Source: a virus
DNA: 53,682 nt
Reading direction: 5' to 3' (one strand)
IMG/VR virus record: IMGVR_UViG_3300006033_000032
Span: 1-53,682 of that record
This document shows positions 11,418-47,626 of this stretch, in pieces (positions within the stretch are counted from its first letter, which is position 1; the number at the start of each line of letters is the position of its first letter). Made by a program: the position numbers and the translations under genes. Below the pieces are notes generated by a model. The model was given only the letters and a program-made list of their open reading frames with translations. It was not told where the DNA came from and searched no databases.

Positions 11418-12815
11418 TTAGTCGGTCGCGATCCCGGCAAAAGCCAGATAGTACATCGCAGCTTGCACGCGGTTCGGATCAGGGCTTCCTTCGGGGGCGA
11501 TCAGGGTCCGCAGGGCGGGGTTAAGATGCGCCGACTTCTGGAAGCCGTCGAGAGAGAAAGAGCTGATCAGGCGGCGGTAGTAGGAGTAGAGGTCGACGAC
11601 CTCTTCGGGTGCTCCTTGGCTCGCCATCTTCTGTGGTTCCCAGCCCGAGAGCGGGGATGAAGTGACGAAGCCTGACCGCGCGCTGATCTTTGTCAGGTGG
11701 GCATGGTACAGGGCGTTGGAGAAGTTGTCCAGCGACACGCGAACCGGCGCAACCAGTTCAGCATCCTTCTGGAGAGCGTCTTCATCGCCGTGTTCGGTGG
11801 CATGAATGGTCAGCTGCGACAGTTCGGCAGGCGACAGAACGACGCCAGATGCAGCCAGCGTCGAGATGACTTCGTTGATGTCGCCGCCGCACTGCTCGAT
11901 CATCTGCTTCAGCTCGTCGGAGCTGAACGGTTCAGGCTCGGTATCAGCCTGCATCGCCGGCCGGTTCTCGGGCCGCAGATCGTTGACCGTCGTGCCACCG
12001 ACTTCCTTGTCGATCTCGGACCACTTGATGCGCCATGCTGCCGTCTTGGTCCGGTCGAGGATGTCGTAGGCCGTGTTCTTCGAGAGCGACATGCTGACGA
12101 ATCCGCGCGACGCGACCTTGCCCTGCGACAGAGCGATCGGGTCAGCCGGGATCGTCACCTTGCTGATGTCGAAGAAGCGCGGCTTGAAGTTGTCCGCAGC
12201 GATCAGCCGGCCGTCCGGCATGATCTCGTTCATCAGATCACGAAGGTGCGAGCACCGCTGCGACGTGAACTCGTTCTCGTGGCCACAGTAGATGCACCGC
12301 TCGTGGTGGATGCGGCAGCCCATCGACACGGGGATGATGCCGCCATCGTCGATGATGCTGGCCGAACGCGGATCACGATCGCGGTGGATGCGAATGATCA
12401 GCTCGACGCGCCGCATCGGGATGTTCCACGCTGCGAGCGGAACGTCACCGAACCAGGGGTCGTAGTCGCTGTTGGCGTGGTGGTGGAAGAACTTCGCGGT
12501 CTCGAAGGTCTTGTAGCGCGGCACGCTCAGCCCGCGCAGCTGGTCGACGTTCTTCTCGACTTCGTCTGGCTCCTGCATGCCCAGCAGCTCGTCGGCGCGG
12601 AAGATGTCGCCGTTGAGGTTGCTGCCATACGTCGGTCCATCGCTCATCGCGATGGTGTGCATGTAGCAGTAGCGCGGATCAGGACGAACGGTGTTGATGA
12701 AGTCCTGGATCTCAGGCGGGACGTAGGCTTCGGGCTCGAAGCTGGCGAACTTCGAACGCTGGTCGATCGAGGACGCGACCTTGAAGTTGGCGTGGATGCG
12801 CTTCTCGATGCTCAT
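11418..12815 (-). CDS. Prohead maturation protease candidate (S78-like) with zinc-binding insert
   Basis: The 465-residue product shows the two landmarks of prohead serine proteases of the HK97/S78 type. A histidine lies before an acidic/aromatic segment and a glycine (FFHHHANSDYDPWFGDV, His111-113). A serine follows after the strands RRVELIIRI, in IPVSMGCRI (Ser164), comparable to the VSIGF serine of the family. Right after it comes a Cys/His cluster (HHERCIYCGHENEFTSQRCSH: Cys174, Cys177, Cys188, His190), likely a zinc-binding insert not usual for the family. The C-terminal half is helical and acidic and may form part of the core. It overlaps the upstream start by 4 bases. The fold assignment comes from motif comparison only. 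Confidence 0.55.
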   Translation of the reverse strand: MSIEKRIHANFKVASSIDQRSKFASFEPEAYVPPEIQDFINTVRPDPRYCYMHTIAMSDGPTYGSNLNGDIFRADELLGMQEPDEVEKNVDQLRGLSVPRYKTFETAKFFHHHANSDYDPWFGDVPLAAWNIPMRRVELIIRIHRDRDPRSASIIDDGGIIPVSMGCRIHHERCIYCGHENEFTSQRCSHLRDLMNEIMPDGRLIAADNFKPRFFDISKVTIPADPIALSQGKVASRGFVSMSLSKNTAYDILDRTKTAAWRIKWSEIDKEVGGTTVNDLRPENRPAMQADTEPEPFSSDELKQMIEQCGGDINEVISTLAASGVVLSPAELSQLTIHATEHGDEDALQKDAELVAPVRVSLDNFSNALYHAHLTKISARSGFVTSSPLSGWEPQKMASQGAPEEVVDLYSYYRRLISSFSLDGFQKSAHLNPALRTLIAPEGSPDPNRVQAAMYYLAFAGIATD

Positions 12816-20713: not shown

Positions 20714-22528
20714 CTACGCCGTGACCTCCGCCGAGGCGCTCTGGAGACGCTCAGCCACGCGGGCCAGCGCCTTCATCGCGACAGTCGTTGCGGTCTCGTC
20801 GCCGGGGAAGCCCATGCGGATGGCCAGCAGGAGACGCGCGAGCTTGCTCACGGTCTCGTTGAACTGGTCGGCGAGGCCGACGAACTCGGCGAGGTTGTCT
20901 TCGGTCAGGAAGCTGGCGCCGAGGATGGCGTCGACGCTCTCGGGGTCGCCAAGCGTCGCAGCGAGTTTGAGGCCCTTCTCCAGATCGAGGCGGATCTCGA
21001 CGAGCGCTTCGGCTGCGAACTTGGGGGCGTCCTGGTGCGCCGCCACCTTGGTGGCCAGCTGTTCGAGCTGCGCAGGCAGCGTCGACGCGAAGCGGACGCT
21101 GCCGTCACGGCGCGCAGCGGCCATCAGCTCGGTGGCGTTGTCGAGGTGGCTGTCGAGCAGCGTGGCGATCTTGGCCTCGCTGACCTGGGTGCTGAGGGGC
21201 TCGCCACGCAGGTTGAGCGTCCACTGGTCGCCGTGGCAGATCAGCTGGTCCGGCAGCTTGCTGGCGAGCACGCTGGCGACCTTCTCGGCTGACAGCGCCG
21301 GCAGCTCCTGGTACTCGCCCAGCGCGAGCACCTGGGTGTTGGACGGGAACACCCACGCATTCGACTCGCTGTCGTGCATCGCGACCTTGGCACGGTTGTC
21401 GATGTAGACGGTGAACGGCGTGCCGAGATCGCTCTGCATGCGCAGCTCGACGCTGCGGGTCGCATCGTTCACGACCATCGACGCCAGCTTGGCCGGCGCA
21501 GTGAAGATGCCGTCGGTGTGGAAGACGAAGTGCTGGCCGACGCGCAGGCTGTTGGTGGCCGTCTTCTCCAGCACGGCTCCCGCGACCTTGGCCTCTGCTG
21601 CCTCATCCTTGCGGAAGCCGGTGACGGCCTCCGGCGCACGGGCGAAGGAGCTGTCGTCGAAGATGAACCAGCGCGCCACCTTCTCGGTCGGCTTGGCGAG
21701 GTTGATGGCGTCGAAGGCCACGGCGGTCTTGGCGCTCTCGTCGGCCACGAAGATGTCAGCGGCCAGGATCTCAGCCGACTTCATCTGCTCCAGATCCTCG
21801 GGCAGCGCGAGCAGCACGGCGTGCGAGCGCTCGATGCCGGCCGATGCCATCTTGGCCTGCACGCTGTTCTTCGGCTCCGGTGCCGCGAACCAGCTGTCGA
21901 GCACGGCGCCCGTCTCGTTCTGCGCGAAGCCAGCCACGATGCCGGCGTTCTTGCTGAGGATGGACGCTGCCTTCTCCTTCTGCTTCTCGCTGGCACCCAG
22001 GTAGGAGGCCAGGACCGTGCGGCCACGGAACGGGAGACGCAGGCTGGAGCCGTCCTCGCTGTAGCCGGTGTTCAGGTTGATGTGCTTCGGCACCGGGTCG
22101 CCCATGCTGCCAGCGTCGAGAGCCGAGGTGAAGCTGTCCTCGTTGAGCGGCACGACGGTGTCGTCGGTCATGTCGCCAGCGCCCTGCTGATCAGCCGCGT
22201 CATCGGCGGGGTTGTCCTGCCGGTTGATGAGGATGTCGAGCGGGGCCAGCTCCCAGTTCTTGATGATGACCGGGATGCTCAGGCGCGGTGCGCCGACGAT
22301 GGAGACGAAGCCCATCGCGCAGCCGGCGGCATCATCCCGCTGGGTGAAGTTGACGATGGCACGGTCGAGCGGGATGTAGGGGTGCTCGCGCAGCAGCACC
22401 TGCGTGATCTCGTCGTCCCAGTAGGCAGGCGGCGACGTCAGGCGCGTGCCAGCCAGCTTGACGACCTCCTGTTCGGGGAGGTAGTCGGCCGGGTTGATCG
22501 TCTGCGGCTGCATGAAGAGGGGCGGCAT
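20714..22528 (-). CDS. Large hypothetical virion-cluster protein
   Basis: It has 604 residues. The N-terminal half is mixed alpha/beta with an acidic Asp/Gln-rich loop (residues 105-125). The C-terminal third is almost entirely helical (QLEQLATKVAAHQDAPKFAAEALVE-type heptads). The ATG follows TAGGATTCTCGCC. The 70 bases upstream hold only a short inverted repeat (GATAGCTATC). No family is recognised; it is probably structural or a packaging partner. Confidence 0.5.
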   Translation of the reverse strand: MPPLFMQPQTINPADYLPEQEVVKLAGTRLTSPPAYWDDEITQVLLREHPYIPLDRAIVNFTQRDDAAGCAMGFVSIVGAPRLSIPVIIKNWELAPLDILINRQDNPADDAADQQGAGDMTDDTVVPLNEDSFTSALDAGSMGDPVPKHINLNTGYSEDGSSLRLPFRGRTVLASYLGASEKQKEKAASILSKNAGIVAGFAQNETGAVLDSWFAAPEPKNSVQAKMASAGIERSHAVLLALPEDLEQMKSAEILAADIFVADESAKTAVAFDAINLAKPTEKVARWFIFDDSSFARAPEAVTGFRKDEAAEAKVAGAVLEKTATNSLRVGQHFVFHTDGIFTAPAKLASMVVNDATRSVELRMQSDLGTPFTVYIDNRAKVAMHDSESNAWVFPSNTQVLALGEYQELPALSAEKVASVLASKLPDQLICHGDQWTLNLRGEPLSTQVSEAKIATLLDSHLDNATELMAAARRDGSVRFASTLPAQLEQLATKVAAHQDAPKFAAEALVEIRLDLEKGLKLAATLGDPESVDAILGASFLTEDNLAEFVGLADQFNETVSKLARLLLAIRMGFPGDETATTVAMKALARVAERLQSASAEVTA

Positions 22529-35167: not shown

Positions 35168-35243
35168 TGGCTCCGAGACCAGGACTCGAACCTGGGACCT
35201 TGATGTTAACAGCATCTTGCTCTACCAACTGAGCTATCTCGGA
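35168..35243 (-). tRNA. tRNA-Asn (anticodon GUU)
   Basis: Acceptor TCCGAGA/TCTCGGA, D arm GCTC-AGTTGGTA-GAGC, anticodon loop CTGTTAA, T arm CCAGG-TTCGAGT-CCTGG, G73 and encoded CCA. The outermost anticodon-stem pair (27-43) is A-A. This intact gene contrasts with the interrupted Asn-like RNA at 30789-30918. Confidence 0.93.
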
Positions 35244-35248
35244 ATGCA

Positions 35249-35335
35249 TGGTGCGGGTGGAAGGAATCGAACCTACTTGGTACGAAGTACGACAGATTTA
35301 CAGTCTGCCCCGCCTCCATATCGGTCTACACCCGC
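35249..35335 (-). tRNA. tRNA-Tyr (anticodon GUA)
   Basis: Class II tRNA: acceptor GCGGGTG/CACCCGC, anticodon stem CAGA/TCTG with loop CTGTAAA, long variable arm (GTAC-TTC-GTAC), T arm with TTCGATT, A73 and encoded CCA. Five bases separate it from the tRNA-Asn. Confidence 0.93.
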
Positions 35336-35929: not shown

Positions 35930-38900
35930 TTAGGCTCCAGTCTCGGCTTCTGCCGTCTTGTGGAATGCGCTGTCGAACAGCGGCGCCGGACGGAACGTGG
36001 CTCCGTATGCCAGACCAGCGATCGGCGACGCGCTGCCAGTCAGATCGCTGCTGCCAGCACTCGAAGACACATCACGGATGCTGTCGTCGAGACGCTGGAA
36101 GTTCAGGCGCGCGAGCAGATCCTTCGATTCGAGCGGCTTGTGGCTCAGGCCAAGCAGCACCGGCTTCGCTTCGATCTTGCTGTTCTTCGCGTGCAGCGCG
36201 TTGAACTCGTTCTCGTGCATGACGTCACCGACCGAAATGCTCGGCTCTCCGCCATCGTCGGTGATCTCGACCGTGCGCATCAGACCAGCGGCGAGCACCT
36301 CGATCACCGGCTTGCGCACGGTAGCACCAGCGGCCTCGTAGCTCTTGCGGATGTCATTGACGACGTAGCGCTGAGCAGCGAGGCCGCCCTGGAGAGCTGC
36401 GATCTCCTGCGGACGGTAGTTGCCGTCGGTGATCGGCTGGCCCTTGGTCACGCGGTCACCGACGTTCACCTTCATGTTGCGGTTGGCCGGCACGTAGTGC
36501 TCGACAGTCGGGCCACTCGTCGGGCGCACGGTGACATAATAGCCGCCCTGCGGCGCGATGCGCTTGTCGCTGACCGTGCCAGCGACCTGTGCGAGCACGC
36601 CCTGGTCCTTCAGCTGCTCAGGCGTGCTGAGCAGATCCTTCAGACGTGCGAAGCCGTCAGTCAGACTGTCGCCAGATCCGATCGTACCACCGCTGTGGAA
36701 CGCCTTCATGATCAGCTGCGTCGAACGCTCGCTGACCGACTGGCCGTAGTTGTAGCCGATGTTCGAGCCGATCGGGTGCAGCTTGCCCTGCGCGTCACGG
36801 CCAGCGCACATCTGGCACGGAACATGAAGCGACTTGCAAGTCATGGGGCTGCGAACCATCACGTCCTTCAGGCCCTTGTCGCGAAGAACCGACAGGACGT
36901 GCGGCGTGATCGGATCGTTGCGCTTGAAGCCAGCGACGTCGTTGAGCAGATGCCGATCGAGCAGATCCACATCAGCTTCGTTCAGCGGCTCGTCGATGCC
37001 GACCTTCGTTCCGCAGTCCTTCTCCATCACGCGGATGTCACCGACGTTGCCAGCGACTTCCTTGGCAAGGAAGCCGGGCAGCGCAGTGGAACGGGAACGG
37101 GCCACGAGGCCCTTTCGCGCACCAGGGGTGACCATGACGTAGTCGCTGGGCGACATGCCACCAGCGTAGCTCGACGTGATGACATTCGGCACGAGCTTGT
37201 CATTCACATCGGTCACAGCGAGCGGGGTCGCCAGCACCTGCTTCATCTGGTCGATCTTCTTGTTCGACTCGCTGACGACGAAGCTGTGGTAGCCCTCGTT
37301 GGTCTCTTCGAGGTGCTTCTTCATGATGTCCGTCAGCTGGTCGCTCACGGCCTTCTGCTTCGACGAGAAGATCTTGCGGCGCTCTTCGATCGTCGAACCC
37401 TTGCGCACCTCATTGTCGAGCTGAGTCAGCAGTCGGTTGATCTTGGAGCGGTCCACGACCAGCTCCTTGATCGACGAGGTAATGCCGCCGGCTGCCGCTG
37501 CGAACTCGAAGCCGGCCTGTGAGATGCGGCGGCTGATGAGGTTGTAGTCAGCCGGCGAGTCAGTGGCGATGCGCTCCAGCAGCTTGTCGAGCTTCTTGCC
37601 GGTGATCGGCGCGCTGATGCCAGCGAGGAACCGCTTCGGGACAATCTCTTCGAACATCAGCCAACCGACAGCGATCGGATTCGGGTTGCCCTCGATCTTC
37701 ACGAGGCTCCCCATCTGGAGGCTGTCTTTGTTGTTGCGGTAGGCGTCGATCGCATCGGCCGCCGTCTTGTAGCTCTTGCCACTCGGCGACCCCGGAGATG
37801 TCAGCGCGAAGATGCCGCTGATGATGTCCTTGCTCACGCCGTAGGCGAGGCCCTTGTTCCGGTCATAGATCAGATTCTTCGACGGCAGCAGCTTGAAGGA
37901 CTCGTTCTTCGCTGCGTCAGTGATCGGCGTGAAGATCGACATCGTGTCGCCGTCGTAGTCGGCGTTGAACGGCCCGCACACCAGCGGGCTGATCTTCACT
38001 TCCTTGCCCTCGCTGATGCGCGGCATGGCCGCAGCGATGCCCCAGCGGTGCAGGGTGGGCGCGCGGTTGTAGAGGACTGGGCGCTCCTTCATCTCGGCGT
38101 CGAGTGCCTGCCGGGCGGCCAGCGTGCGCTTCTCGACCTGTTCCGCAGCTTCGGCCGGCTGCCAACCGCCCTGCGACATGCGGCGAACGATGCTGGGCTT
38201 GTAGATCTTCCAGGCCATGTCCTCCGGGATCGAGATCTCATCGACGCCGAGGTTGCTGTCGGGTTCGATGGTCGACCGGCCGCTGTAGTCGTTGCGGTGT
38301 GCGACGACGAGGCGCTGGAAGAGGCCCTCCTTGTTGCGCTTGCCCTTGATGATGTCGATGAACCCGCTGGCGTCCTCGCGGTCGTCGCGATGGGTGAGCG
38401 GGTTGTTCACGCCGATGAGTGCGCCGAACGCCTCGTAGGCGTGCTTGCGCGCTTCGGTCTGCATGCTCTTCGGCAGGCCAGCGGACTTCGCGTCGGCAAG
38501 CGACTTCGTGGTGAGCAGCAAATCGCGGTACAGCAGGTTGCTGTCTGCCACGCGCAGTGCTCCACCAGACATCTCGATGATCGGACGGAACTTCGGCGGG
38601 ATCACCGGCACCGTCTTGGTCATGTAGGCTTCGAACGGATCGAGATCCGACGTCTTCAGGCCGCGCAGGTAGCGAACGGCGCGGTTGTACTTGTTGGCGT
38701 CAGAGCCAACAGCAGTGCGCAGCTTCTGGCGAAGATCGCGGATCTTGCTGTCGACGTTGAAGTCGAGCACGTGCTTGAAGGCAGCCTCGCCGGTGACGCG
38801 CCCCTCACCGGGTTCGTCGACGATCTTGCCGGTCTTCGGGTCATACCAGCGTGAGTGCATGATCAGACCGTAGAACTCGGCCTGCTTCAGCCCGGTGATG

Positions 38901-41900
38901 TCGCGCAGGGTCTTCTCGTAGAGCGGATGCGGGACGCGCTCATCCAGCTCGATGTGCGCCCACTTCTCACCCTTCAGGCCACCCGTGGTCTCGACGTCGT
39001 AGAGGCCACCGGCCTCTTCAGCGAGATCCTTGGAGCGGATGATCGACGCGTTCTCGACCTTGCCGTTGGACAGCGCACGGACGCGCTTCTCGGTCATCGG
39101 CATGTAGTGGAGGGTGTTGCCCTTCTTCTGCGTGTCGACGCCGGCAGCGTTGAGGAACGTGCGGAACTTCTCGAAGGCGAACGGCACCTTCGGAGGCGGC
39201 GGCTGCTCGCCAGCCTGATAGGCGTGCCAGAACTCGTCGTTCTTCGTGCCACGAATACCAGCAGACTCACTGAGGATCGCGTGGGCGTCATGGCCGAGAA
39301 GCGCGTAGGTGGTCAGGTGGTCGAAGCTCTGGCCGCCCTTGCCAGCGCCACGCGTCGGCGTCTCGTCCATGGTGTAGCTGTCACGCTCGCGTGCAGAGAA
39401 CTTCTTCCGCACCGGATGGTCCAGCTTGAACATGTAGTTGTAGCCGACGGCGACGGGGCGCTCGATCCACTTGCCAGTCTGCGGGTCGAACAGCTTCTCA
39501 GAATGGCTGAGGCCCTTCTTGTCCAGCGCGTCGGAGATCTCCTTGGCGTGGTCGCGACCATCGAAGTTCGCGAACGAGTAGGAGCCCTTGCCGTCGCGGA
39601 CGAGCTTGCCAGCCGCTGACTCGATGGTCTGGCTGGGGTTCATGCGGTTGACGATGCCGTGCGGATTGAGGATGACCTCGATGTGCTTCTTGTCAGCCGT
39701 CTGCGGCATCTCGTGATCGGGAATCACTGCCGAGATCGTGCCCTTGGCCGCGCTGCTCATCGACAGCTTGTCGCCGACACGTGCCGGCTCTTCGGTCTGG
39801 AGATGCACTTCGATGTGGTCGTCGCGCACCAGGACGCGCTTCACGACACCAGGGAAGTCCTCAGTCCACACCACCATGCGGTCCTTGTAGGGCCGCAGCA
39901 GTGCCTTGTGGATGTTGCCGAGGTTCTTCGCCGTGCGATCCTGCGAGTCGACCTCGGTCTTCTGCACCGCAGCGACGAGGACGTCGCCGGGCACGACGCT
40001 CGAACCGTTCTTGATGATTCCCTTGTCGTCGAGCTTGGCGAAGCTGTCCTTCGTGAACTTGGTTGGGAACTGCGCGTAGGCGAGCTTCTTGTCGACCTTG
40101 ATGTCGGGCTCAAGGTCGATCGACTCGCGGTGCACGTGCAGCGACGTGAACTTCTTCGCAGCGCTCTCGCTGATAGCGATGGCGTCCTCGAAGTTCAGCG
40201 CGTTCTTCCACGGCATGTAGGCGCTGCGCACGTTGACGCCGAGTGCCAGCTTGCCCTCGCGGCTGTAGTTGCTGTCAGCGAGCAGCTGCCCCTTCTTCAC
40301 GACGTCGCCAACCTTGACGACTGGCACATGGTCGATCGCGACCTTGGCCTGCATCGGGTAGTTGTCGAACAGCTCGTGCTTCACACCGGCGACGACGATC
40401 TCTTTCTTGGTGACCTTCTCGACCTTGCCAGCGACCTTCGAGCGGATGACGAAGTAGTCGCCGATGACCTCACCCATGGCCGTGCCGAAGCCATCGGTCA
40501 TATTCACCAGCGGCAGCTCGCGATTGATCAGGGGCAGCGCCTGCGTGATGTGCTTGCCGCTCATCATGCCACGGTTGGCGTGCGTGTGATCGAAGAACAG
40601 CGACGAGTTGCTGGCGTGGTCGAACATCGCACGCCCGGACGGGATGACGTACTCGACCTCGGAGGCTGGGACGACCGTGATCTCACCGTCGACGTTGGCA
40701 CGCACCTTGGCAGCTTTCGGCTTCCCGTCCTCGCCCTTGCCGACGTTCCAGTACTCGGGATAGCCGACGATGTGGCTGTTGGCCTCGGTGGTGTCGAGCC
40801 ACGTGAGCTTGCCGATCTTGCCGTTCTCGACCTTGTAGAACAGCGACTTCATCTTGTCGCCGTCCTTGATCGCGTTCACAGCGAGGTGCGTGGTTACGCC
40901 GATCTCGCTGCCTTCAGGCGTGTGCACGCTGTCGATGAAGCCGGCGCTGCCAGGGCGGAAGAGGCGGGCCTCGTTGGTGATGGCCGTGTCGTCCTTGATG
41001 CCGCCCTCGCCCTTCAGCGTGACCTTGCTGTTCTCAGAGAGGATGGCGAGCGGGTTGGCTGCTTCGGCGGTGTTGGCGAGGCCGCCTTCGATGCCGGCAC
41101 GACCACCATAGAAGCCGACGGTCGCGCCATTGAGCCAGCCAGTTCCGAACGCCTGGGCGAGCGTAGCCGTCGGCTTCAGCAGACGGTTCTGCACCCGGCG
41201 CTGGAGCATGCGCGTCATCTTGGTGATGCGCGCAGGGATCATGTCGTCGACATGGTGCAGCGTCTTGAACTCGACGTTGTCACGGTCGTCAGGCTCTTCA
41301 GCACCGCGCTGCACACCGAGGATGCGCTTCGAAGCGAGCAGCAGGACATCGAGGCCAGCGTGCGAGAGTTCGTGGCCGAGCGTGCGCTTGGTGACGTACG
41401 GATCGAGTTCCTTGCTCGACAGCCACGTCTTGATCGCCGCTACCTGACCAGCGGCGTCGACGTTGTCGAACTCGGTATCCTTCTCGACGATGCCGGCGCG
41501 AATCAGTTCCTTGTTCTGCTTGTGCGACACGACTGACTTGAAGAACTTCTCGACGTCAGCTTCACGGGCCTTCGTCTGGTTTACAGCCAGCAGTTCGCGC
41601 GCTTTCTTGTCACCACCCCATGTGTCGACGATCTGGTCGTCTGTCGCACCGAGCGCACGAACGATCGCATACCAGCTGACCGTCGAGTCCCAGACGCCGA
41701 TCTTGAAGATGCCGGTCTCAGGGTCCATGAACACCTTGAGCTGGCCGCCCTTCATCAGGATGAAGGTCTCGAACTCGCCGTTGGTCTTCTGCCGGGTGTA
41801 CGCGCCGGGCTTCAGGCGCAGCTGCATCGGCGTGAAGTAGTCGTTGCCACCAACCATCATCGTGCCGAGCGCACCCATCAGCGGCAGCGAACCGAGGTTG

Positions 41901-42238
41901 AAGCTCTTCAGCGTCTGCACGACCTTGCCGTCACGTGACAGGGTCAGGTCAGCCACGATCCGGCCGCCGAGGGTCTGCCGCCCCTGTCGGGCGTCCTGCC
42001 ACGCGTTCAGGCCATCGGGGTCGAACTTGCTGTCGTCGATGCGGACGTTGGCCGCCTCGACCTTGACGTTCGAGCCCTCAATCGGGAAGAGGCCCTGCAC
42101 GGCTTTTACCGTGCCGGCCTTCATCGCCGGGTTGACGAGCGAGTCGCGCCTGGGGATCGTCGGCAGGGCCTGGGTCGCGACCTTGAGCGCGTATTCCAGG
42201 TGAATCAGGCGGTAGGGATCGAGCCGTTTCGGTTGCAC
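35930..42238 (-). CDS. Single-chain RNA polymerase: fused beta and beta-prime subunits
   Basis: The 2102 residues read without interruption. Beta part (about 1-1030): HTPEGSEIG (439-447), NFEDAIAISE (from 682), VGDKLSMSSAAKGTISAVIPDHEMPQ (Lys824 and Lys832 match E. coli Lys1065/Lys1073), LNPHGIVNRMN and the GGQSFDHLTTYALLG C-terminal clamp. Beta-prime part (about 1041-2102): HIELDERVPHP, KERPVLYNRAPTLHRWGI, catalytic NADYDGDTM (Asp1427, Asp1429, Asp1431), zinc site Cys1742/1801/1808/1811 and trigger loop SERSTQLIMKAFHSGG (His1848). The N-terminal beta-prime zinc ribbon is absent. No alpha or omega gene is visible here. Co-directional with a sigma factor in the late cluster. Confidence 0.95.
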   Translation of the reverse strand: MQPKRLDPYRLIHLEYALKVATQALPTIPRRDSLVNPAMKAGTVKAVQGLFPIEGSNVKVEAANVRIDDSKFDPDGLNAWQDARQGRQTLGGRIVADLTLSRDGKVVQTLKSFNLGSLPLMGALGTMMVGGNDYFTPMQLRLKPGAYTRQKTNGEFETFILMKGGQLKVFMDPETGIFKIGVWDSTVSWYAIVRALGATDDQIVDTWGGDKKARELLAVNQTKAREADVEKFFKSVVSHKQNKELIRAGIVEKDTEFDNVDAAGQVAAIKTWLSSKELDPYVTKRTLGHELSHAGLDVLLLASKRILGVQRGAEEPDDRDNVEFKTLHHVDDMIPARITKMTRMLQRRVQNRLLKPTATLAQAFGTGWLNGATVGFYGGRAGIEGGLANTAEAANPLAILSENSKVTLKGEGGIKDDTAITNEARLFRPGSAGFIDSVHTPEGSEIGVTTHLAVNAIKDGDKMKSLFYKVENGKIGKLTWLDTTEANSHIVGYPEYWNVGKGEDGKPKAAKVRANVDGEITVVPASEVEYVIPSGRAMFDHASNSSLFFDHTHANRGMMSGKHITQALPLINRELPLVNMTDGFGTAMGEVIGDYFVIRSKVAGKVEKVTKKEIVVAGVKHELFDNYPMQAKVAIDHVPVVKVGDVVKKGQLLADSNYSREGKLALGVNVRSAYMPWKNALNFEDAIAISESAAKKFTSLHVHRESIDLEPDIKVDKKLAYAQFPTKFTKDSFAKLDDKGIIKNGSSVVPGDVLVAAVQKTEVDSQDRTAKNLGNIHKALLRPYKDRMVVWTEDFPGVVKRVLVRDDHIEVHLQTEEPARVGDKLSMSSAAKGTISAVIPDHEMPQTADKKHIEVILNPHGIVNRMNPSQTIESAAGKLVRDGKGSYSFANFDGRDHAKEISDALDKKGLSHSEKLFDPQTGKWIERPVAVGYNYMFKLDHPVRKKFSARERDSYTMDETPTRGAGKGGQSFDHLTTYALLGHDAHAILSESAGIRGTKNDEFWHAYQAGEQPPPPKVPFAFEKFRTFLNAAGVDTQKKGNTLHYMPMTEKRVRALSNGKVENASIIRSKDLAEEAGGLYDVETTGGLKGEKWAHIELDERVPHPLYEKTLRDITGLKQAEFYGLIMHSRWYDPKTGKIVDEPGEGRVTGEAAFKHVLDFNVDSKIRDLRQKLRTAVGSDANKYNRAVRYLRGLKTSDLDPFEAYMTKTVPVIPPKFRPIIEMSGGALRVADSNLLYRDLLLTTKSLADAKSAGLPKSMQTEARKHAYEAFGALIGVNNPLTHRDDREDASGFIDIIKGKRNKEGLFQRLVVAHRNDYSGRSTIEPDSNLGVDEISIPEDMAWKIYKPSIVRRMSQGGWQPAEAAEQVEKRTLAARQALDAEMKERPVLYNRAPTLHRWGIAAAMPRISEGKEVKISPLVCGPFNADYDGDTMSIFTPITDAAKNESFKLLPSKNLIYDRNKGLAYGVSKDIISGIFALTSPGSPSGKSYKTAADAIDAYRNNKDSLQMGSLVKIEGNPNPIAVGWLMFEEIVPKRFLAGISAPITGKKLDKLLERIATDSPADYNLISRRISQAGFEFAAAAGGITSSIKELVVDRSKINRLLTQLDNEVRKGSTIEERRKIFSSKQKAVSDQLTDIMKKHLEETNEGYHSFVVSESNKKIDQMKQVLATPLAVTDVNDKLVPNVITSSYAGGMSPSDYVMVTPGARKGLVARSRSTALPGFLAKEVAGNVGDIRVMEKDCGTKVGIDEPLNEADVDLLDRHLLNDVAGFKRNDPITPHVLSVLRDKGLKDVMVRSPMTCKSLHVPCQMCAGRDAQGKLHPIGSNIGYNYGQSVSERSTQLIMKAFHSGGTIGSGDSLTDGFARLKDLLSTPEQLKDQGVLAQVAGTVSDKRIAPQGGYYVTVRPTSGPTVEHYVPANRNMKVNVGDRVTKGQPITDGNYRPQEIAALQGGLAAQRYVVNDIRKSYEAAGATVRKPVIEVLAAGLMRTVEITDDGGEPSISVGDVMHENEFNALHAKNSKIEAKPVLLGLSHKPLESKDLLARLNFQRLDDSIRDVSSSAGSSDLTGSASPIAGLAYGATFRPAPLFDSAFHKTAEAETGA

Positions 42239-42247
42239 CGCAGAATC

Positions 42248-44650
42248 CTACGGGCTCTTAGAAACCGTGCTACTGAAGGCTTTCGCCTGATTCTGGCGGG
42301 CGTCGTACTGGTAGAACTGCTGGGACGAAGCATTGACTGGCGTGTTTGCTTCCGTCAGGTTTTCCTTCATCGACTGCTTCTTGGCCTTCTCATCGTCGGT
42401 GCACAGGTCGTTGAAGTTCATGTTCATGATGTCGTTGATCATGCCGATCAGCTTGATGATCTTGGCAATGCGCTGATTGTCCTCGATCTTGGCGGCCACA
42501 CGGGGTGCGCCATCGAACGACTTCATGTTGGTGCTCTTAGACTCCTGGGTGGAGGCGTCTGGCTCAATGCGCTCCAGCACCTCCACCGAAAGGGTGTTGA
42601 GCACCGGGCTGTCACAGTTGGCGACGAGGCACTTGATACCCTTGATGATGAGGCCGATCGCCGAGCTGTCGCCGAGTAGGTCAGACAGACGCAGGTTCAT
42701 CACCGCGTCCTTCAGGTTGGCGAAGGTGTTGAGGATCTGCTTCAGGTTCTGATAAAGCGCGACTGCATTGGAGATCGCCGAGAAGACAGCCATCAGCTGT
42801 TCGAGCCCAAAGAACATGTGCTGCTTCATGCACACGAGGAACTTCTGGCGGTCGCTGATGGCGAGACGCAGCTCCTTGATCGCGATGGCGATCTCCTGTT
42901 GGGCACCAGGAAGCCCTGCGATGCGGTTCTGCGATGCACGCATCAGGTCATTGACCTGTGCGATGATCCGCTGACCGCCGCGCTTTGGATCAGTCGTGCC
43001 TGCGCACTGGCCGGCATCGAACCGCTCGACGACGGCCATGATGACGCGCATCACGGCTCCCTGGCCAGCGAGGATGCGGTCGATGAAGTTGAACGTCCCA
43101 GGCAGCAGCTGCATCACGCGGCACAGGATCGTGAGCCACATGTACGCGGCTGCTTGGCTCGACATGTACGACCAGACGTCGAAACGGTCGTCGGCCTTCT
43201 GGTAGTATTTCTGCACCTCAGCGTCGACACGCTTGCGCATCTCGGCTTCCGGCAGCTCGCCGTACTTGTCCGTGATGTAGTTCGCCATGAAGTCTTTGTA
43301 CTTCGTGACGTCCGTGGTCTTGACGCTGTTCGTTCCGATCTGATTGCCTGCGTCGTCGAACACAGGCTCGTTGTACGTGAACTCAGGCAGGCTCGTGGCG
43401 CCAGAGCCAGTCAGTTCGAGATCGCGACGAACGCCGCTCACAGCGTTCTTCACCATTAGGATCAGCGGCCCGAGCAGCTTCCCGATGTGGACGTTCGTCA
43501 TCGCCTTGATGTTGTCGACGGCCGAGACGATGTTGCTGTAGAGCATCACGATCTGGTCGTCTTGGTTCTTCACCTGCTGCGCCAGACGCATGATCGCGTC
43601 GATCTTCATCTTGTACGTAGCAGCCGGCAGCATGTGCGTCATGCCGACGTCACCTGCTTTGTACGAGAGTGACTGAATGCCGGTGAAGTTCGACAGATGG
43701 CCGAGCGCCGTCTTGCCGATGTCCATGTCGCCGTCGTAGATGATCTTCTGGGCCTCACAGATCTTGTCAGACGCGTACCCGAGCATTGAGCGATCGAGTA
43801 CGTCATTCTTCGTGATCTTCTCATAGGCGATGCGCAGCGCTTCTTCGGCTTCACAGAGATCGAGCACCGTCGCAGCGTTCGGAAGCGTGACGTCGATTTT
43901 GATCGGCGCCTTGCTCGCAGACTCAGCTATGTCGATCGAGAGCTTCTTCAGGCGGCGTAGGGCATACAGTTCCGAGTCGATTGCAGGGATGCCGTACTCG
44001 AATGCGTAGATGAAGATGCCGAGCAGGTTGCCCTCGGCGTCTGGGCCGAGGAACAGCTTCTGGAGCGACTGGAGGACGTTGTTCTTGAAGTCGTTGAAGA
44101 ACGAGCCTGACTGCCCAGCGTCCAGCTGGCTGGCCATCGCGTTCATCGTCTGGCTCAGCATCTGCCCCTGCGTCTTCAGGAAGAGCATGAACGGATTCAT
44201 CAGCGAATCCTTCATCTCCGAGAAGAAGCTGTCGAGCTGGTCCAGCAGATCTGGTCCTTCACCGGGCAGAATGATGTCGCCGAGCAGGCTGAAGGCGTCC
44301 TTGAACGGCTTCATCATTGCGTCGCGCATCTTCTTCAGCATGTCGTTGTCTGCTGAGTTCTCCGGCAGCGCGAAGTACGCGGTGGCGCCGAGCGCCAAGT
44401 CGACGAAGCACGGAACAGTCCCGAGCCCCGGCGGCAGGAAGCCGTAGCCGATGTTCAGAAGATCACGACCGCTCTGGATGCTGCTGAGGGTCCCGACGAT
44501 CTCGGTCGTCACGCCGACTGCGTCGGACATCGCATTCGACAGCTTCTCGGCTGGGCTGTCGCCTACTGCACCGTATTCGTCGGTGCTCAGCTCGTCGTTG
44601 ACCGTCTCCTTGATCTGAGACGTCGTGTCCTTCAGGAGCGGGCTGGCCAT
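42248..44650 (-). CDS. Large helical virion-cluster protein between sigma and polymerase genes
   Basis: It has 800 residues, predominantly helical, with a small-residue hydrophobic segment near 70-100 (LGTVPCFVDLALGATAYFAL) and long amphipathic helices elsewhere (YMSSQAAAYMWLTILCRVMQLL). No enzyme motif is seen. Nine bases separate it from the polymerase gene and one base from the sigma gene. It may be a tail or ejection protein, or a partner of the polymerase; the family is not recognised. Confidence 0.55.
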   Translation of the reverse strand: MASPLLKDTTSQIKETVNDELSTDEYGAVGDSPAEKLSNAMSDAVGVTTEIVGTLSSIQSGRDLLNIGYGFLPPGLGTVPCFVDLALGATAYFALPENSADNDMLKKMRDAMMKPFKDAFSLLGDIILPGEGPDLLDQLDSFFSEMKDSLMNPFMLFLKTQGQMLSQTMNAMASQLDAGQSGSFFNDFKNNVLQSLQKLFLGPDAEGNLLGIFIYAFEYGIPAIDSELYALRRLKKLSIDIAESASKAPIKIDVTLPNAATVLDLCEAEEALRIAYEKITKNDVLDRSMLGYASDKICEAQKIIYDGDMDIGKTALGHLSNFTGIQSLSYKAGDVGMTHMLPAATYKMKIDAIMRLAQQVKNQDDQIVMLYSNIVSAVDNIKAMTNVHIGKLLGPLILMVKNAVSGVRRDLELTGSGATSLPEFTYNEPVFDDAGNQIGTNSVKTTDVTKYKDFMANYITDKYGELPEAEMRKRVDAEVQKYYQKADDRFDVWSYMSSQAAAYMWLTILCRVMQLLPGTFNFIDRILAGQGAVMRVIMAVVERFDAGQCAGTTDPKRGGQRIIAQVNDLMRASQNRIAGLPGAQQEIAIAIKELRLAISDRQKFLVCMKQHMFFGLEQLMAVFSAISNAVALYQNLKQILNTFANLKDAVMNLRLSDLLGDSSAIGLIIKGIKCLVANCDSPVLNTLSVEVLERIEPDASTQESKSTNMKSFDGAPRVAAKIEDNQRIAKIIKLIGMINDIMNMNFNDLCTDDEKAKKQSMKENLTEANTPVNASSQQFYQYDARQNQAKAFSSTVSKSP

Positions 44651-44651
44651 A

Positions 44652-45401
44652 TCAGACCCTGCTCATGTGCATGTTGAGCTTGTCGGCGATCGACGTGCGC
44701 AGCTGAGACACGCGTCCTGCGCTCATCTTCAGCTTCGAGGCAATCTCGTTGTTCGACAGCTTCTGCTTTCCGTGCGCGCCGAGGCTGTAGTCGAACACCT
44801 GCTGCTCGTCGGGCGTGAGGCTGTAGTAGGCCAGCATCGCGCGCTCGTAGTTCTCGTCGTGCTCGAACTGCGACAGCTCGTCGAAGCCACCAGGGCCTGA
44901 CTGAAGCAGGTCGCGCCGCATCATCTTCTCCAGCTTGGTCACGTGCTTCAGCGGAACGCCGAGGTGGTCCGCGATCTCAGCAGACGATGGGTCGCGGCCC
45001 ATCTTCTGCGTCAGGTCGCTGACAGCGGCTCGGTACGGAGCGATCTGCTGAATCTTGGCCTCGGGGATGCGCGCGACGTTCTGGTGCATCCCGTTGTAGC
45101 GGTAGAGCTTGTTCTTCACCGCCGTCAGCACGTAGGTGCTGAGGTTGGTGCTGCGGCTCGGGTCGTATTCCTGGAGTGCTTCGACAGCGTAGATCTTGCC
45201 CTGCGTCTCCAGAATCGGACGAGCGACGGGGCTGCCGCTCGTGTACATGTTCACTGCCGTCATGATCGGACCCATGAGGCTCTGCATGAGTGCTTCGAGC
45301 GCCTGCTCCTTCTTGTAGCCGACGGCGTTCTTCCACTCCTTGAACATGCGCTGGTCACGGGCAGCAGGCGACTCGGCACCTGGGGTACTGAAAGAATCCA
45401 C
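44652..45401 (-). CDS. Sigma-70-family transcription initiation factor
   Basis: The 249-residue product has sigma region 2 (ILETQGKIYAVEALQEYDPSRSTNLSTY-like, about 65-105; the DPSR...ST.Y.....I/VK pattern of FliA-type factors), region 3 (VARIPEAKIQQIAP ... LTQKMGRDPSSAEIADHLGV, about 110-155) and region 4 helix-turn-helix (LTPDEQQVF ... LSNNEIASKLKMSAGRVSQLR, about 195-240). Region 1 is absent, as in group 3 sigmas. It lies in one unit with the fused polymerase and tail genes, so it probably directs that polymerase, or the host core, to late promoters. Confidence 0.85.
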   Translation of the reverse strand: MDSFSTPGAESPAARDQRMFKEWKNAVGYKKEQALEALMQSLMGPIMTAVNMYTSGSPVARPILETQGKIYAVEALQEYDPSRSTNLSTYVLTAVKNKLYRYNGMHQNVARIPEAKIQQIAPYRAAVSDLTQKMGRDPSSAEIADHLGVPLKHVTKLEKMMRRDLLQSGPGGFDELSQFEHDENYERAMLAYYSLTPDEQQVFDYSLGAHGKQKLSNNEIASKLKMSAGRVSQLRTSIADKLNMHMSRV

Positions 45402-45403
45402 GA

Positions 45404-47626
45404 TCAGCCCTCCGTGATGCCGGCGTTGATTGCTGCCTTGATCATCCGTGCCGCATTCTGGCGGATAGGCGAGAGGAAGCTAGTGCCCTTGCTGAGAACA
45501 TAGGAGAAATCAGCAGAAGCCAGCTCGTACGGCCCGTACGCATTGGCACCAGAGGCCGACTTCATCAGCACCATGCGCTGCGGCGCAGCGAAGAGCTTGT
45601 GTGCACCAGTTCCCGAGCTGTCGAGGTCGTCGGGCTCGGCACGGCCGAACGCGAAGTCGGGATCTCCTGCGTCACCGGCCTTCGTCTTCTGCACGCCGGG
45701 CAGTGCATGGAACTCAGCGTACTGGCTGAGCGAGACGCCTGGGCGGTACTGGTATTCGAGTGCAGCGCGGCCGGGGTCCGGCGAGCTGTGGATGTTGGCC
45801 GCGATGGTGCTGCCCACTGGCTGCGAAGCCATGCTGAAGTCTTTGGTGTACGACGGAACGTTCATCACCAGTCGAGCCAGCTCGTCCAGGTTGATCTGTT
45901 TCGTCGCGTACTCGCTCTTGTTCGACGCGCTCTCGGTGATGTTCTGCAATGACTTCATGATGAGGTCAGTCGGCAGCATAGCCGAGTGCCCACCAGCAGC
46001 TGCACCACCGGACGACGAGTTCACATTCGACACCTTGGACACGTTGGTGCCGAAGACGACGTTGTACGCGTTCTTCTCGATGCGGTCGGGATAGAACTTG
46101 TCGCAGATCCACGACGCGAGCGGCACGTTGCGAAGCCGTTCGTCCACTGCATAGGCTTCGCGGACATGGCTGATCTGCAACGAGGTCGAAGGCGCACCAG
46201 TCGCGCTGATGATGTGCGTGACCGCGCTGATGATCCCCCAGAACGGCCCAGTCTTGTCTTCGATCAGGCACGGGAAGCCGACGGCCACATACGGAAGGAA
46301 CGTGCACGTCACGTTGGCTGACCGGGCGCCTGCACGAACGGCCTCGAAGTGCGTGCGCGCAGCGGCCTGGACGTACTCGATGTAGTCGCGCTCTTTGATC
46401 GTGGCGCCCGTGCGTGTCTGATCCGGCGGCAGCTTCAGCGGATCGGTGCTGACCGCCGGGCCGAAGTTCTCCATCGGCAGCGACACGAAATGCGGGATGA
46501 CACCGCGATGGTATTCCTCGGTCGTCAGGAGGTCATGGGTAGCACAGATGCCAGCGCGCATGCCGGGCGCACTGTGATCGTTCCTGAACGAGATGCTCGA
46601 CTGCTTGATGATCGAGTTCGTCACGATCGCACGTTCGACGCTGTTCACGACGACGAAGGCCGGGACTTGGACGTTTCCAGCGACGGCGCCGGTCTCGATC
46701 TGCGCAATGACGCGCGTCGGCTCAGCCAGGAAGTTGCGCGTCGCGCTGATGTCCACGATCTGATCAGTGAAGATCACGTTGCAGGCAGGAGGAATGGCGC
46801 CGTACAGGTGGGGGATGAACAGCATCTCAGGGATGCGATAACCCGAACCGACGACGGCGTTGTTGTCAGCTGCCTTCGCTCCCGTCAGGTTGACCATGGG
46901 CGGCGCGAGCAGCGGAACGTGGTGGTAGAGGGCGACGTTCTCAAGCTCCCCGATGATGCGAGAGAGCGTCTTGCCCTGCGACTGCTCACGGCCGATACCA
47001 GTCATCATCATGTTCAGCAGCTCAACGTTCAGCCGCTGCGTGATCTGAACGTCAGCGAACGCGAAGGTCTTGTTCGCGACTGCTCGTGCAGAGTGGTAGA
47101 AGGTGTCGACGGGCGACTGCTTCACCATCGCGTCGATGAGCGACATCAGCATGATCGACATCGGCGACTTGGTGTTCTTCTCGGTCGCGAGGAATGCCGC
47201 AAGGCTCGTTTGGAGTTTCGACGTGCTCGGGGCGTCGGTGCCGGTGACCAGCGACTGCGAGTTGGCCACGATCTGCTTCAGTGTCCCGTCGACGCCGAGC
47301 CCAGTCACCGACATCAACTGCACGGTGTCCCACATGGCGTGGAGACCACGGAACAGCAGCGAGCGACGCCGGGCTCCCTGTGCCGACTTCATCTTGTTGT
47401 AGCCGATGTACTCACCCTCGCACATGAACCGCCATGCGTTCGATACCGGATCGGCGAAGAAGACGGCACAGTGCGACCGCTCTGGCAGCGCGTCCCATTC
47501 GGGCACCGCCGGCACATCGACGGAGAACGACAGATGCGACCCGTCTGACGCGCTGATGGCGACGTTCATCGGCGAGAACTTCACGCCGTTGATGTAGACG
47601 ATGACGGATACAGCGAACGTGGACAT
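45404..47626 (-). CDS. Baseplate hub candidate
   Basis: The 740-residue protein opens with a beta-sandwich-like domain (TFAVSVIVYINGVKFSPMNVAISASDG). It contains a hub-like strand set, SANVTCTFLPYVAVGFPCLIEDKTGPFWGIISAVTHII (about 435-475), similar in layout to the gp27/gpD type of tail hub proteins. The C-terminus is polar and partly disordered. It lies among tail genes between a baseplate candidate and the sigma gene. The call rests on layout and context. Confidence 0.45.
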   Translation of the reverse strand: MSTFAVSVIVYINGVKFSPMNVAISASDGSHLSFSVDVPAVPEWDALPERSHCAVFFADPVSNAWRFMCEGEYIGYNKMKSAQGARRRSLLFRGLHAMWDTVQLMSVTGLGVDGTLKQIVANSQSLVTGTDAPSTSKLQTSLAAFLATEKNTKSPMSIMLMSLIDAMVKQSPVDTFYHSARAVANKTFAFADVQITQRLNVELLNMMMTGIGREQSQGKTLSRIIGELENVALYHHVPLLAPPMVNLTGAKAADNNAVVGSGYRIPEMLFIPHLYGAIPPACNVIFTDQIVDISATRNFLAEPTRVIAQIETGAVAGNVQVPAFVVVNSVERAIVTNSIIKQSSISFRNDHSAPGMRAGICATHDLLTTEEYHRGVIPHFVSLPMENFGPAVSTDPLKLPPDQTRTGATIKERDYIEYVQAAARTHFEAVRAGARSANVTCTFLPYVAVGFPCLIEDKTGPFWGIISAVTHIISATGAPSTSLQISHVREAYAVDERLRNVPLASWICDKFYPDRIEKNAYNVVFGTNVSKVSNVNSSSGGAAAGGHSAMLPTDLIMKSLQNITESASNKSEYATKQINLDELARLVMNVPSYTKDFSMASQPVGSTIAANIHSSPDPGRAALEYQYRPGVSLSQYAEFHALPGVQKTKAGDAGDPDFAFGRAEPDDLDSSGTGAHKLFAAPQRMVLMKSASGANAYGPYELASADFSYVLSKGTSFLSPIRQNAARMIKAAINAGITEG

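Follow-up and report, generated by a model that had tools for sequence, protein, structure and literature searches.

The two large subunits of bacterial-type RNA polymerase (RNAP), beta and beta', are joined in one chain by a gene of IMG/VR virus record IMGVR_UViG_3300006033_000032, a stretch of 53,682 bases that was analysed whole and is called the window here. The chain carries both halves and the catalytic residues of both; its central 897 residues are modelled with the folds of the two subunits, the junction is seamless, and the polymerase shares its ancestry with those of other phages. The fusion is common to a whole widespread phage lineage and is not unique to the window. We put at about two in three the probability that the product is a complete two-barrel core in one chain, which would assemble by itself without alpha, be directed by a sigma factor and serve middle or late phage genes. 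The window has no end repeats and hence is probably a fragment. Terminase (downstream of the RNAP gene) and capsid-type genes mark it as belonging to a tailed phage. The first-pass annotation of this DNA was right in proposing a phage-encoded single-chain beta-beta' polymerase.

One gene for both large subunits

The gene is read on the minus strand, from 42238 to 35930; the plus-strand reading was ruled out by the stops present in it. The coordinates agree with those proposed in the first pass, where the strand had not been stated. The frame has no internal stop, and an AGGA stands 7 nt 5' of its GTG start. The parts of the gene referred to below are as follows.

35930..42238, minus strand: fused beta-beta' RNA polymerase gene, 2102 codons, GTG start
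39125..42238, minus strand: beta-homologous half, residues 1-1038 (PF04565, PF00562; structural alignment to beta chains)
35930..39124, minus strand: beta'-homologous half, residues 1039-2102 and the stop (PF00623, PF04998; structural alignment to beta')
39065..39163, minus strand: junction, residues 1026-1058, RTFLNAAGVDTQK running into KGNTLHYMPMTEKRVRALSN (alignment of 56 non-redundant phage sequences)
39740..39775, minus strand: GDKLSMSSAAKG, with the beta active-site lysines, K1065 and K1073 in E. coli (sequence alignment)
37946..37966, minus strand: NADYDGD catalytic Mg-binding motif, residues 1425-1431 (alignment; coordinates re-read directly)
36686..36745, minus strand: trigger loop region with the invariant His, H936 in E. 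coli, residues 1832-1851 (alignment)

Pfam searches placed Rpb2 domains 3 and 6 within residues 391-956 (Rpb2_6, E=1.7e-52) and Rpb1 domains 1, 2 and 5 within residues 1205-1994 (Rpb1_2, E=3e-26), the Rpb1_1 match being under its curated cut-off. Residues 1151-2056 were matched by bacterial beta' chains of the PDB at E ~1e-93. Together with the residue alignment described below, these matches bear out the earlier claim of a continuous 2102-codon frame with the catalytic landmarks of both subunits. The same frame is kept in the related loci L002, L004 and L003 at 66%, 53% and 38% identity, respectively. Its conservation marks it as a gene rather than a chance reading frame.

An AlphaFold2 model was made of residues 600-1496 from a 40-row alignment, with a mean predicted local distance difference test score (pLDDT) of 85.1 and a predicted template modelling score (pTM) of 0.71. 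Model residues 1-445 align with beta chains up to their C-termini (Z up to 28.7, root-mean-square deviation 3.3, 415 residues aligned), and model residues 440-870 align with beta' from about its residue 5-16 (Z up to 23.9, deviation 3.7, 426 aligned). Comparison of a predicted structure with bacterial RNAP, one of the checks proposed in the first pass, thus returned a beta fold followed by a beta' fold. Since the first segment aligns to the C-terminus of beta and the next to the start of beta', there is virtually no linker between the halves, which abut near residue 1039.

The junction has one length

The beta C-terminal motif PFAFEKFRTFLNAAGVDTQK passes directly into the beta' start KGNTLHYMPMTEKRVRALSNG. 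Between two fixed alignment columns the junction measures exactly 33 residues in all 56 phage sequences, compared with 36-118 in twelve concatenated reference pairs. A single open frame spans it in 84 of 84 related loci, a set in which some contigs are near-duplicates and three are isolates. The junction lies around model residue 440, where the blocks have pLDDT values of 86-95.

These results bear on whether post-translational cleavage separates beta from beta', to yield an ordinary two-subunit core. No evidence for it was found in the DNA, where protein processing leaves no trace, and we regard it as very improbable: the junction lies in confidently modelled structure, has no linker and keeps one length in 56 sequences, and wherever the lineage breaks the chain it is the gene that breaks; the site is near residue 1500, and in no case the junction.

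Catalytic residues, zinc sites and the rifampicin pocket

Residues were surveyed in an alignment of the 56 non-redundant phage sequences with ten bacterial ones. Numbered as in E. coli, beta' D460, D462 and D464 correspond to window residues 1427, 1429 and 1431, and beta' R425 and H936, along with beta D814, K1065, K1073, R1106 and H1237, are all present. In the numbering of the window, the intact residues include R1392, D685, R865 and H941. K824 (E. coli K1065) is kept in 55 of the 56 phages and K832 (K1073) in all of them. In the bridge helix and trigger loop, G1722 and H1848 are invariant across the 56 phages; the position of E. coli R933 is a lysine in the window.

Fifty-five of the 56 phages, including the window, lack the beta' N-terminal zinc ribbon, and all four cysteines of the second zinc site of beta' are retained in the window. 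Eight of nine positions of the rifampicin pocket are altered in the window (Q513N, D516E, H526E, R529K, S531T, L533K, N568E, I572T). Hence, the fused phage RNAP is predicted from its sequence to be probably rifampicin-resistant.

Continuous and re-split relatives

A profile scan brought in 80 related loci. Counting the window, 19 sequences (18 loci besides it) are continuous across residues 1400-1600. In 51 related loci beta' is carried by two genes; the break falls close to position 1500, past the catalytic barrel and ahead of the bridge helix; the gene for the C-terminal part lies ~0.6-6 kb downstream.

37724..37741, minus strand: residues ~1500-1505, where the 51 related loci are split and the window is continuous (locus comparison)

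Isolates with a split beta' are Salmonella phage Arash (gp206 and gp216) and Vibrio phages D69 and D181. The beta' subunits of phiKZ-type phages and of cyanobacteria are likewise split after the barrel (PMC7598289). The fusion first noticed in the window is real, and the earlier description of it had missed its sharing across the lineage, the re-splitting of beta' in many members and the nearby sigma gene described below.

Other interruptions were seen in single relatives, among them L004 and L040, both counted above as continuous. L004 has an in-frame TAG at 12401-12403, at the otherwise invariant lysine codon corresponding to E. coli beta K1065, with an in-frame ATG 6 bases on; it may be a sequence error, a nonsense mutation or a site of readthrough. 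L040 is unsplit near 1500 and changes frame at eight consecutive A residues. Both this frameshift and the amber codon of L004 may be sequence errors. In Vibrio phage D181 (L006, 3594-4492) the beta part, which is continuous in Vibrio phage D69, is broken up by short frames and a gene for a homing endonuclease. Related phages carry intein-like inserts in the RNAP at a number of conserved sites, among them the position directly next to the catalytic NADFDGD motif and the active-site lysine loop. Each of those listed here has Intein_splicing and/or LAGLIDADG matches.

L026:14033-15454, intein-like insert
L034:14033-15574, intein-like insert
L059:14042-15412, intein-like insert
L081:11465-12736, intein-like insert
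L072:11114-12154, intein-like insert
L076:12278-13366, intein-like insert
L062:13439-14371, intein-like insert

Phylogeny and origin of the fusion

Trees were built with FastTree and IQ-TREE (LG+F+G4) from 1934 columns and 68 sequences, ten of them bacterial. With IQ-TREE the phages formed a clade of their own outside the ten sampled bacteria, with support of 100/100 (Shimodaira-Hasegawa-like approximate likelihood ratio test/ultrafast bootstrap); the model was simple, and the tree had no archaeal, Helicobacter or Wolbachia sequences. The FastTree Shimodaira-Hasegawa (SH) support for this clade was 0.992, and 0.735 and 0.974 for beta and beta' alone. The split or split-type sequences (n=38) formed one clade (SH 1.0 with FastTree, 100/100 with IQ-TREE). 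The single-chain sequences were placed differently by the two programs, L040 being basal in both. The simplest history would have a single fusion at the base of the clade and a single re-split later on.

The phylogeny had been proposed as the check that might expose a recent, host-derived fusion artefact, and it did not do so: as the phage sequences form a clade outside the sampled bacteria, the fusion is not both recent and host-derived. More specifically, a phage might have lately captured a naturally fused host rpoBC of the Helicobacter or Wolbachia type. The NCBIfam models of fused beta/beta', PRK09603 and PRK14844, do match both halves of the window chain. Their scores, however, fall far short of the cut-offs, at 472 of 5372 and 364 of 4632 bits. 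In the tree described above, which has no Helicobacter or Wolbachia members, the phages group together outside the ten bacteria, and 55 of 56 phages lack the beta' N-terminal zinc ribbon. Such a capture is extremely improbable.

Among possible parents with separate subunits, Yersinia phage GN1 and Cobetia phage Carin-5 were considered and rejected; they encode beta' and then beta as separate genes, and fall on a distant long branch. Scans of IMG/VR for further phage RNAPs with separate subunits turned up almost nothing. A scan of genome contigs for clues to the host yielded nothing beyond an rpoB-rpoC pair in Patescibacteria and a short protein in Latescibacteria. The latter (L088:8993-12097, Latescibacteria chromosome OY282377.1) is a 1035-amino-acid single open reading frame with beta-like and beta'-like catalytic regions, a compact single-chain RNAP, perhaps from a prophage. 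Three records labelled as phages (OR844998.1, CAKLQF020000005.1 and AFYI01000006.1) hold an ordinary bacterial rpoB-rpoC, probably by host contamination.

Alpha, omega and sigma

Cellular multisubunit RNAPs require an alpha-type scaffold for assembly. The first-pass annotation had left two options, assembly without alpha or alpha genes lying elsewhere in the genome, and had suggested a search for alpha- and omega-like genes. We used 24 long relatives (records of 151-226 kb, three of them whole isolate genomes) and profiles that were positive in 13 or 14 of 14 cellular control genomes. Alpha was not detected with PF01000 in any of the 24 (nor in 8 records of a separate scan) or with PF01193 in 16 records, and omega was not detected with PF01192 in 16 records. 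The second option is weakened accordingly. With no alpha or omega detected in relatives and the beta' N-terminal zinc ribbon missing, the lineage does not match the canonical alpha2 beta beta' omega core.

Each of the 24 long relatives has one RNAP gene set, judged by the beta' double-psi beta-barrel family. Sigma-70 region 3 was found at E<=0.01 in 23 of them, with 13 above the curated cut-off. The window, too, encodes a sigma factor, two genes upstream of the RNAP gene.

44652..45401, minus strand: sigma-70-family factor, 249 amino acids, with part of region 2 and regions 3 and 4 (Pfam, profile search)

Regions 3 and 4 (PF04539 and PF04545) score above cut-off, and region 2 (PF04542) is matched only over positions 34-64 of 71 and under cut-off. 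The profile of this sigma matches RpoS and SigA structures at 1e-23 to 1e-22. The flap-tip and clamp-helix segments are kept in the fused core.

Proposed mechanism

Joined end to end with no linker, beta first and beta' second, the two halves would make a complete double-psi-barrel core in one chain. We propose that the fusion takes over the role of alpha in assembly, so that the chain would fold into an active core alone; alpha could have become dispensable because the tether sits where the C-terminus of beta and the N-terminus of beta' meet. Artificial and natural beta-beta' tethers work in bacteria. The co-encoded sigma-70-type factor would bind the clamp and flap-tip regions and bring the core to phage promoters. 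The enzyme, presumably made after infection, would transcribe middle or late phage genes independently of the host RNAP.

Several points weigh against this scheme. E. coli beta' R275, which we take to be a sigma-contact residue, is not conserved in the phage core. The window is a 53.7-kb fragment, and its own alpha status is judged solely from relatives. Alpha-like proteins too divergent for Pfam may be present, or host alpha may be used. The mutual packing of the beta and beta' halves is indicated by the pTM of 0.71; the Foldseek and VIA matches span one half each and so give no independent check of it.

The use of host alpha deserves separate comment. In phages with no detectable alpha gene it is the obvious alternative, and the core layout remains bacterial; the fused chain would then not be self-sufficient and would recruit the host alpha dimer (and omega) into a phage/host hybrid polymerase. 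Against this, other phage RNAPs of this superfamily, whether phiKZ-type or single-chain, lack alpha (PMC7598289, PMC10770324). Members of the lineage infect hosts as unlike as Vibrio and Salmonella, and the junction, which could relieve the enzyme of its need for alpha, has a strictly constant length. We hence consider a hybrid enzyme unlikely and a self-assembling core the better reading.

The time at which such a core acts is a separate matter. The RNAP gene lies near structural genes (terminase in the window, and a portal-like gene immediately upstream of RNAP in Vibrio phage D69 and Salmonella phage Arash), as might be expected if the polymerase were carried in the virion and delivered into the cell for early transcription, as is the virion RNAP (vRNAP) of phiKZ. 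However, gene position alone does not prove packaging, and these genomes have one RNAP and nearly always a sigma, unlike the pair of vRNAP and non-virion RNAP (nvRNAP) of the phiKZ type. Packaging is thus conceivable, but we think it rather doubtful.

Gene neighbourhood

The genes around the RNAP gene form a run with spacings of 1-14 bp, in the order 787-amino-acid protein, 740-amino-acid protein, sigma, 800-amino-acid protein, RNAP. The gaps from sigma to RNAP are 1 and 9 bp. The same order is found in L002 and L004.

47641..50004, minus strand: 787-amino-acid protein of the same run as sigma and RNAP (gene order)
45404..47626, minus strand: 740-amino-acid protein of the same run (gene order)
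42248..44650, minus strand: 800-amino-acid protein encoded between the sigma and RNAP genes, with conserved counterparts in L002 and L004
35500..35928, minus strand: 142-amino-acid protein directly 3' of RNAP, of a family found in 17 loci

No PDB relative was found for the 800-amino-acid protein. The 142-amino-acid protein of the window matches a 523-amino-acid protein located right after the fused RNAP in L003 (16336-17907), which has LigD 3'-phosphoesterase and ATP-dependent ligase domains. Genes for tRNA-Asn (35168-35243) and tRNA-Tyr (35249-35335) follow closely after the RNAP gene and share its strand, and a gene for tRNA-Met is at 30063-30140.

Another protein, g604 (window 20714-22528), has homologues in 52 loci, the window included, mostly downstream of RNAP. 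It had no Pfam or PHROG match and no PDB match at E<=0.001; its one clear BFVD match was to an uncharacterised phage protein, and its AlphaFold2 model (pLDDT 77) had no clear solved structural relative. The window also encodes an RNA-binding protein of the TROVE/Ro60 type whose C-terminal part is von Willebrand A-like (28392-29849), and a protein of the MYG1-type exonuclease family (25511-26503; PF03690, E=4.5e-65), unexpected in a phage.

Comparison with known polymerases

Phage-encoded bacterial-type beta and beta' are already known as mReC (Weinheimer & Aylward 2020, PMC7481178). As in the window, the mReC subunits are readily alignable with bacterial beta and beta' and have the NADxDGD motif; they form a clade apart from bacteria and come from large tailed phages of IMG/VR, and TerL matches PF03237 in both. 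The differences are that the text of PMC7481178 describes beta and beta' subunits and names a fusion for crAssphage only, and that the mReC capsid is PF07068, whereas the best capsid match of the window is HK97-type PF05065 (E=0.0016, under cut-off). The PF07068 capsid is not strictly defining, since PMC7481178 detected it in only 8 contigs. By the features described there, the window polymerase probably belongs with the mReC polymerases. In the open-access literature we found no paper describing the beta-beta' fusion, the fixed junction or the re-split subclade in these phages.

Salmonella phage Arash (gp206 and gp216) and Vibrio phages D69, D148 and D181 belong to the same clade as the window, with the 33-residue junction, a sigma present and no alpha or omega found; they differ in having two chains, beta-beta'N of ~1525 and beta'C of ~607 amino acids. 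The Helicobacter and Wolbachia RpoBC proteins are natural beta-beta' fusions in the same order, but are ~2840-2890 amino acids long, and the window scores less than one-tenth of their NCBIfam cut-offs. They are cellular and function together with alpha and omega.

The phiKZ/AR9-type RNAPs of jumbo phages are homologous two-barrel enzymes without alpha or omega. They differ in consisting of 4-5 polypeptides, with beta and beta' separate and each split, in numbering two per phage, in having no recognisable sigma or initiation factor, and in being far more divergent (PMC7598289). The RNAPs of crAss-like phage phi14:2 (gp66) and P23-45 (gp64/gp96), and YonO, are also single-chain two-barrel phage enzymes; they belong to the other major two-barrel clade and have scant similarity to beta and beta' beyond the catalytic motif (PMC10770324). 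That paper also mentions fused-barrel derivatives in the cellular-type clade.

Significance

Taken more broadly, and tentatively, at a confidence a little short of even, a widespread lineage of large tailed phages may use a bacterial-type single-chain core, free of alpha and omega, together with a sigma factor of its own, the seamless fusion having arisen once, outside known bacterial diversity, and having been re-split in part of the lineage at the site used by cyanobacteria and phiKZ. The question is open to bench work because isolated members (Arash, D69) already exist. If true, it would rank as the simplest cellular-type RNA polymerase that depends on sigma. A one-polypeptide, sigma-dependent core without alpha or omega would be a minimal form of the enzyme that is easy to express, and would show whether tethering alone substitutes for alpha. 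It would also provide a clean evolutionary series, from separate subunits in bacteria, through a chain fused once in phages, to one split again after the barrel.

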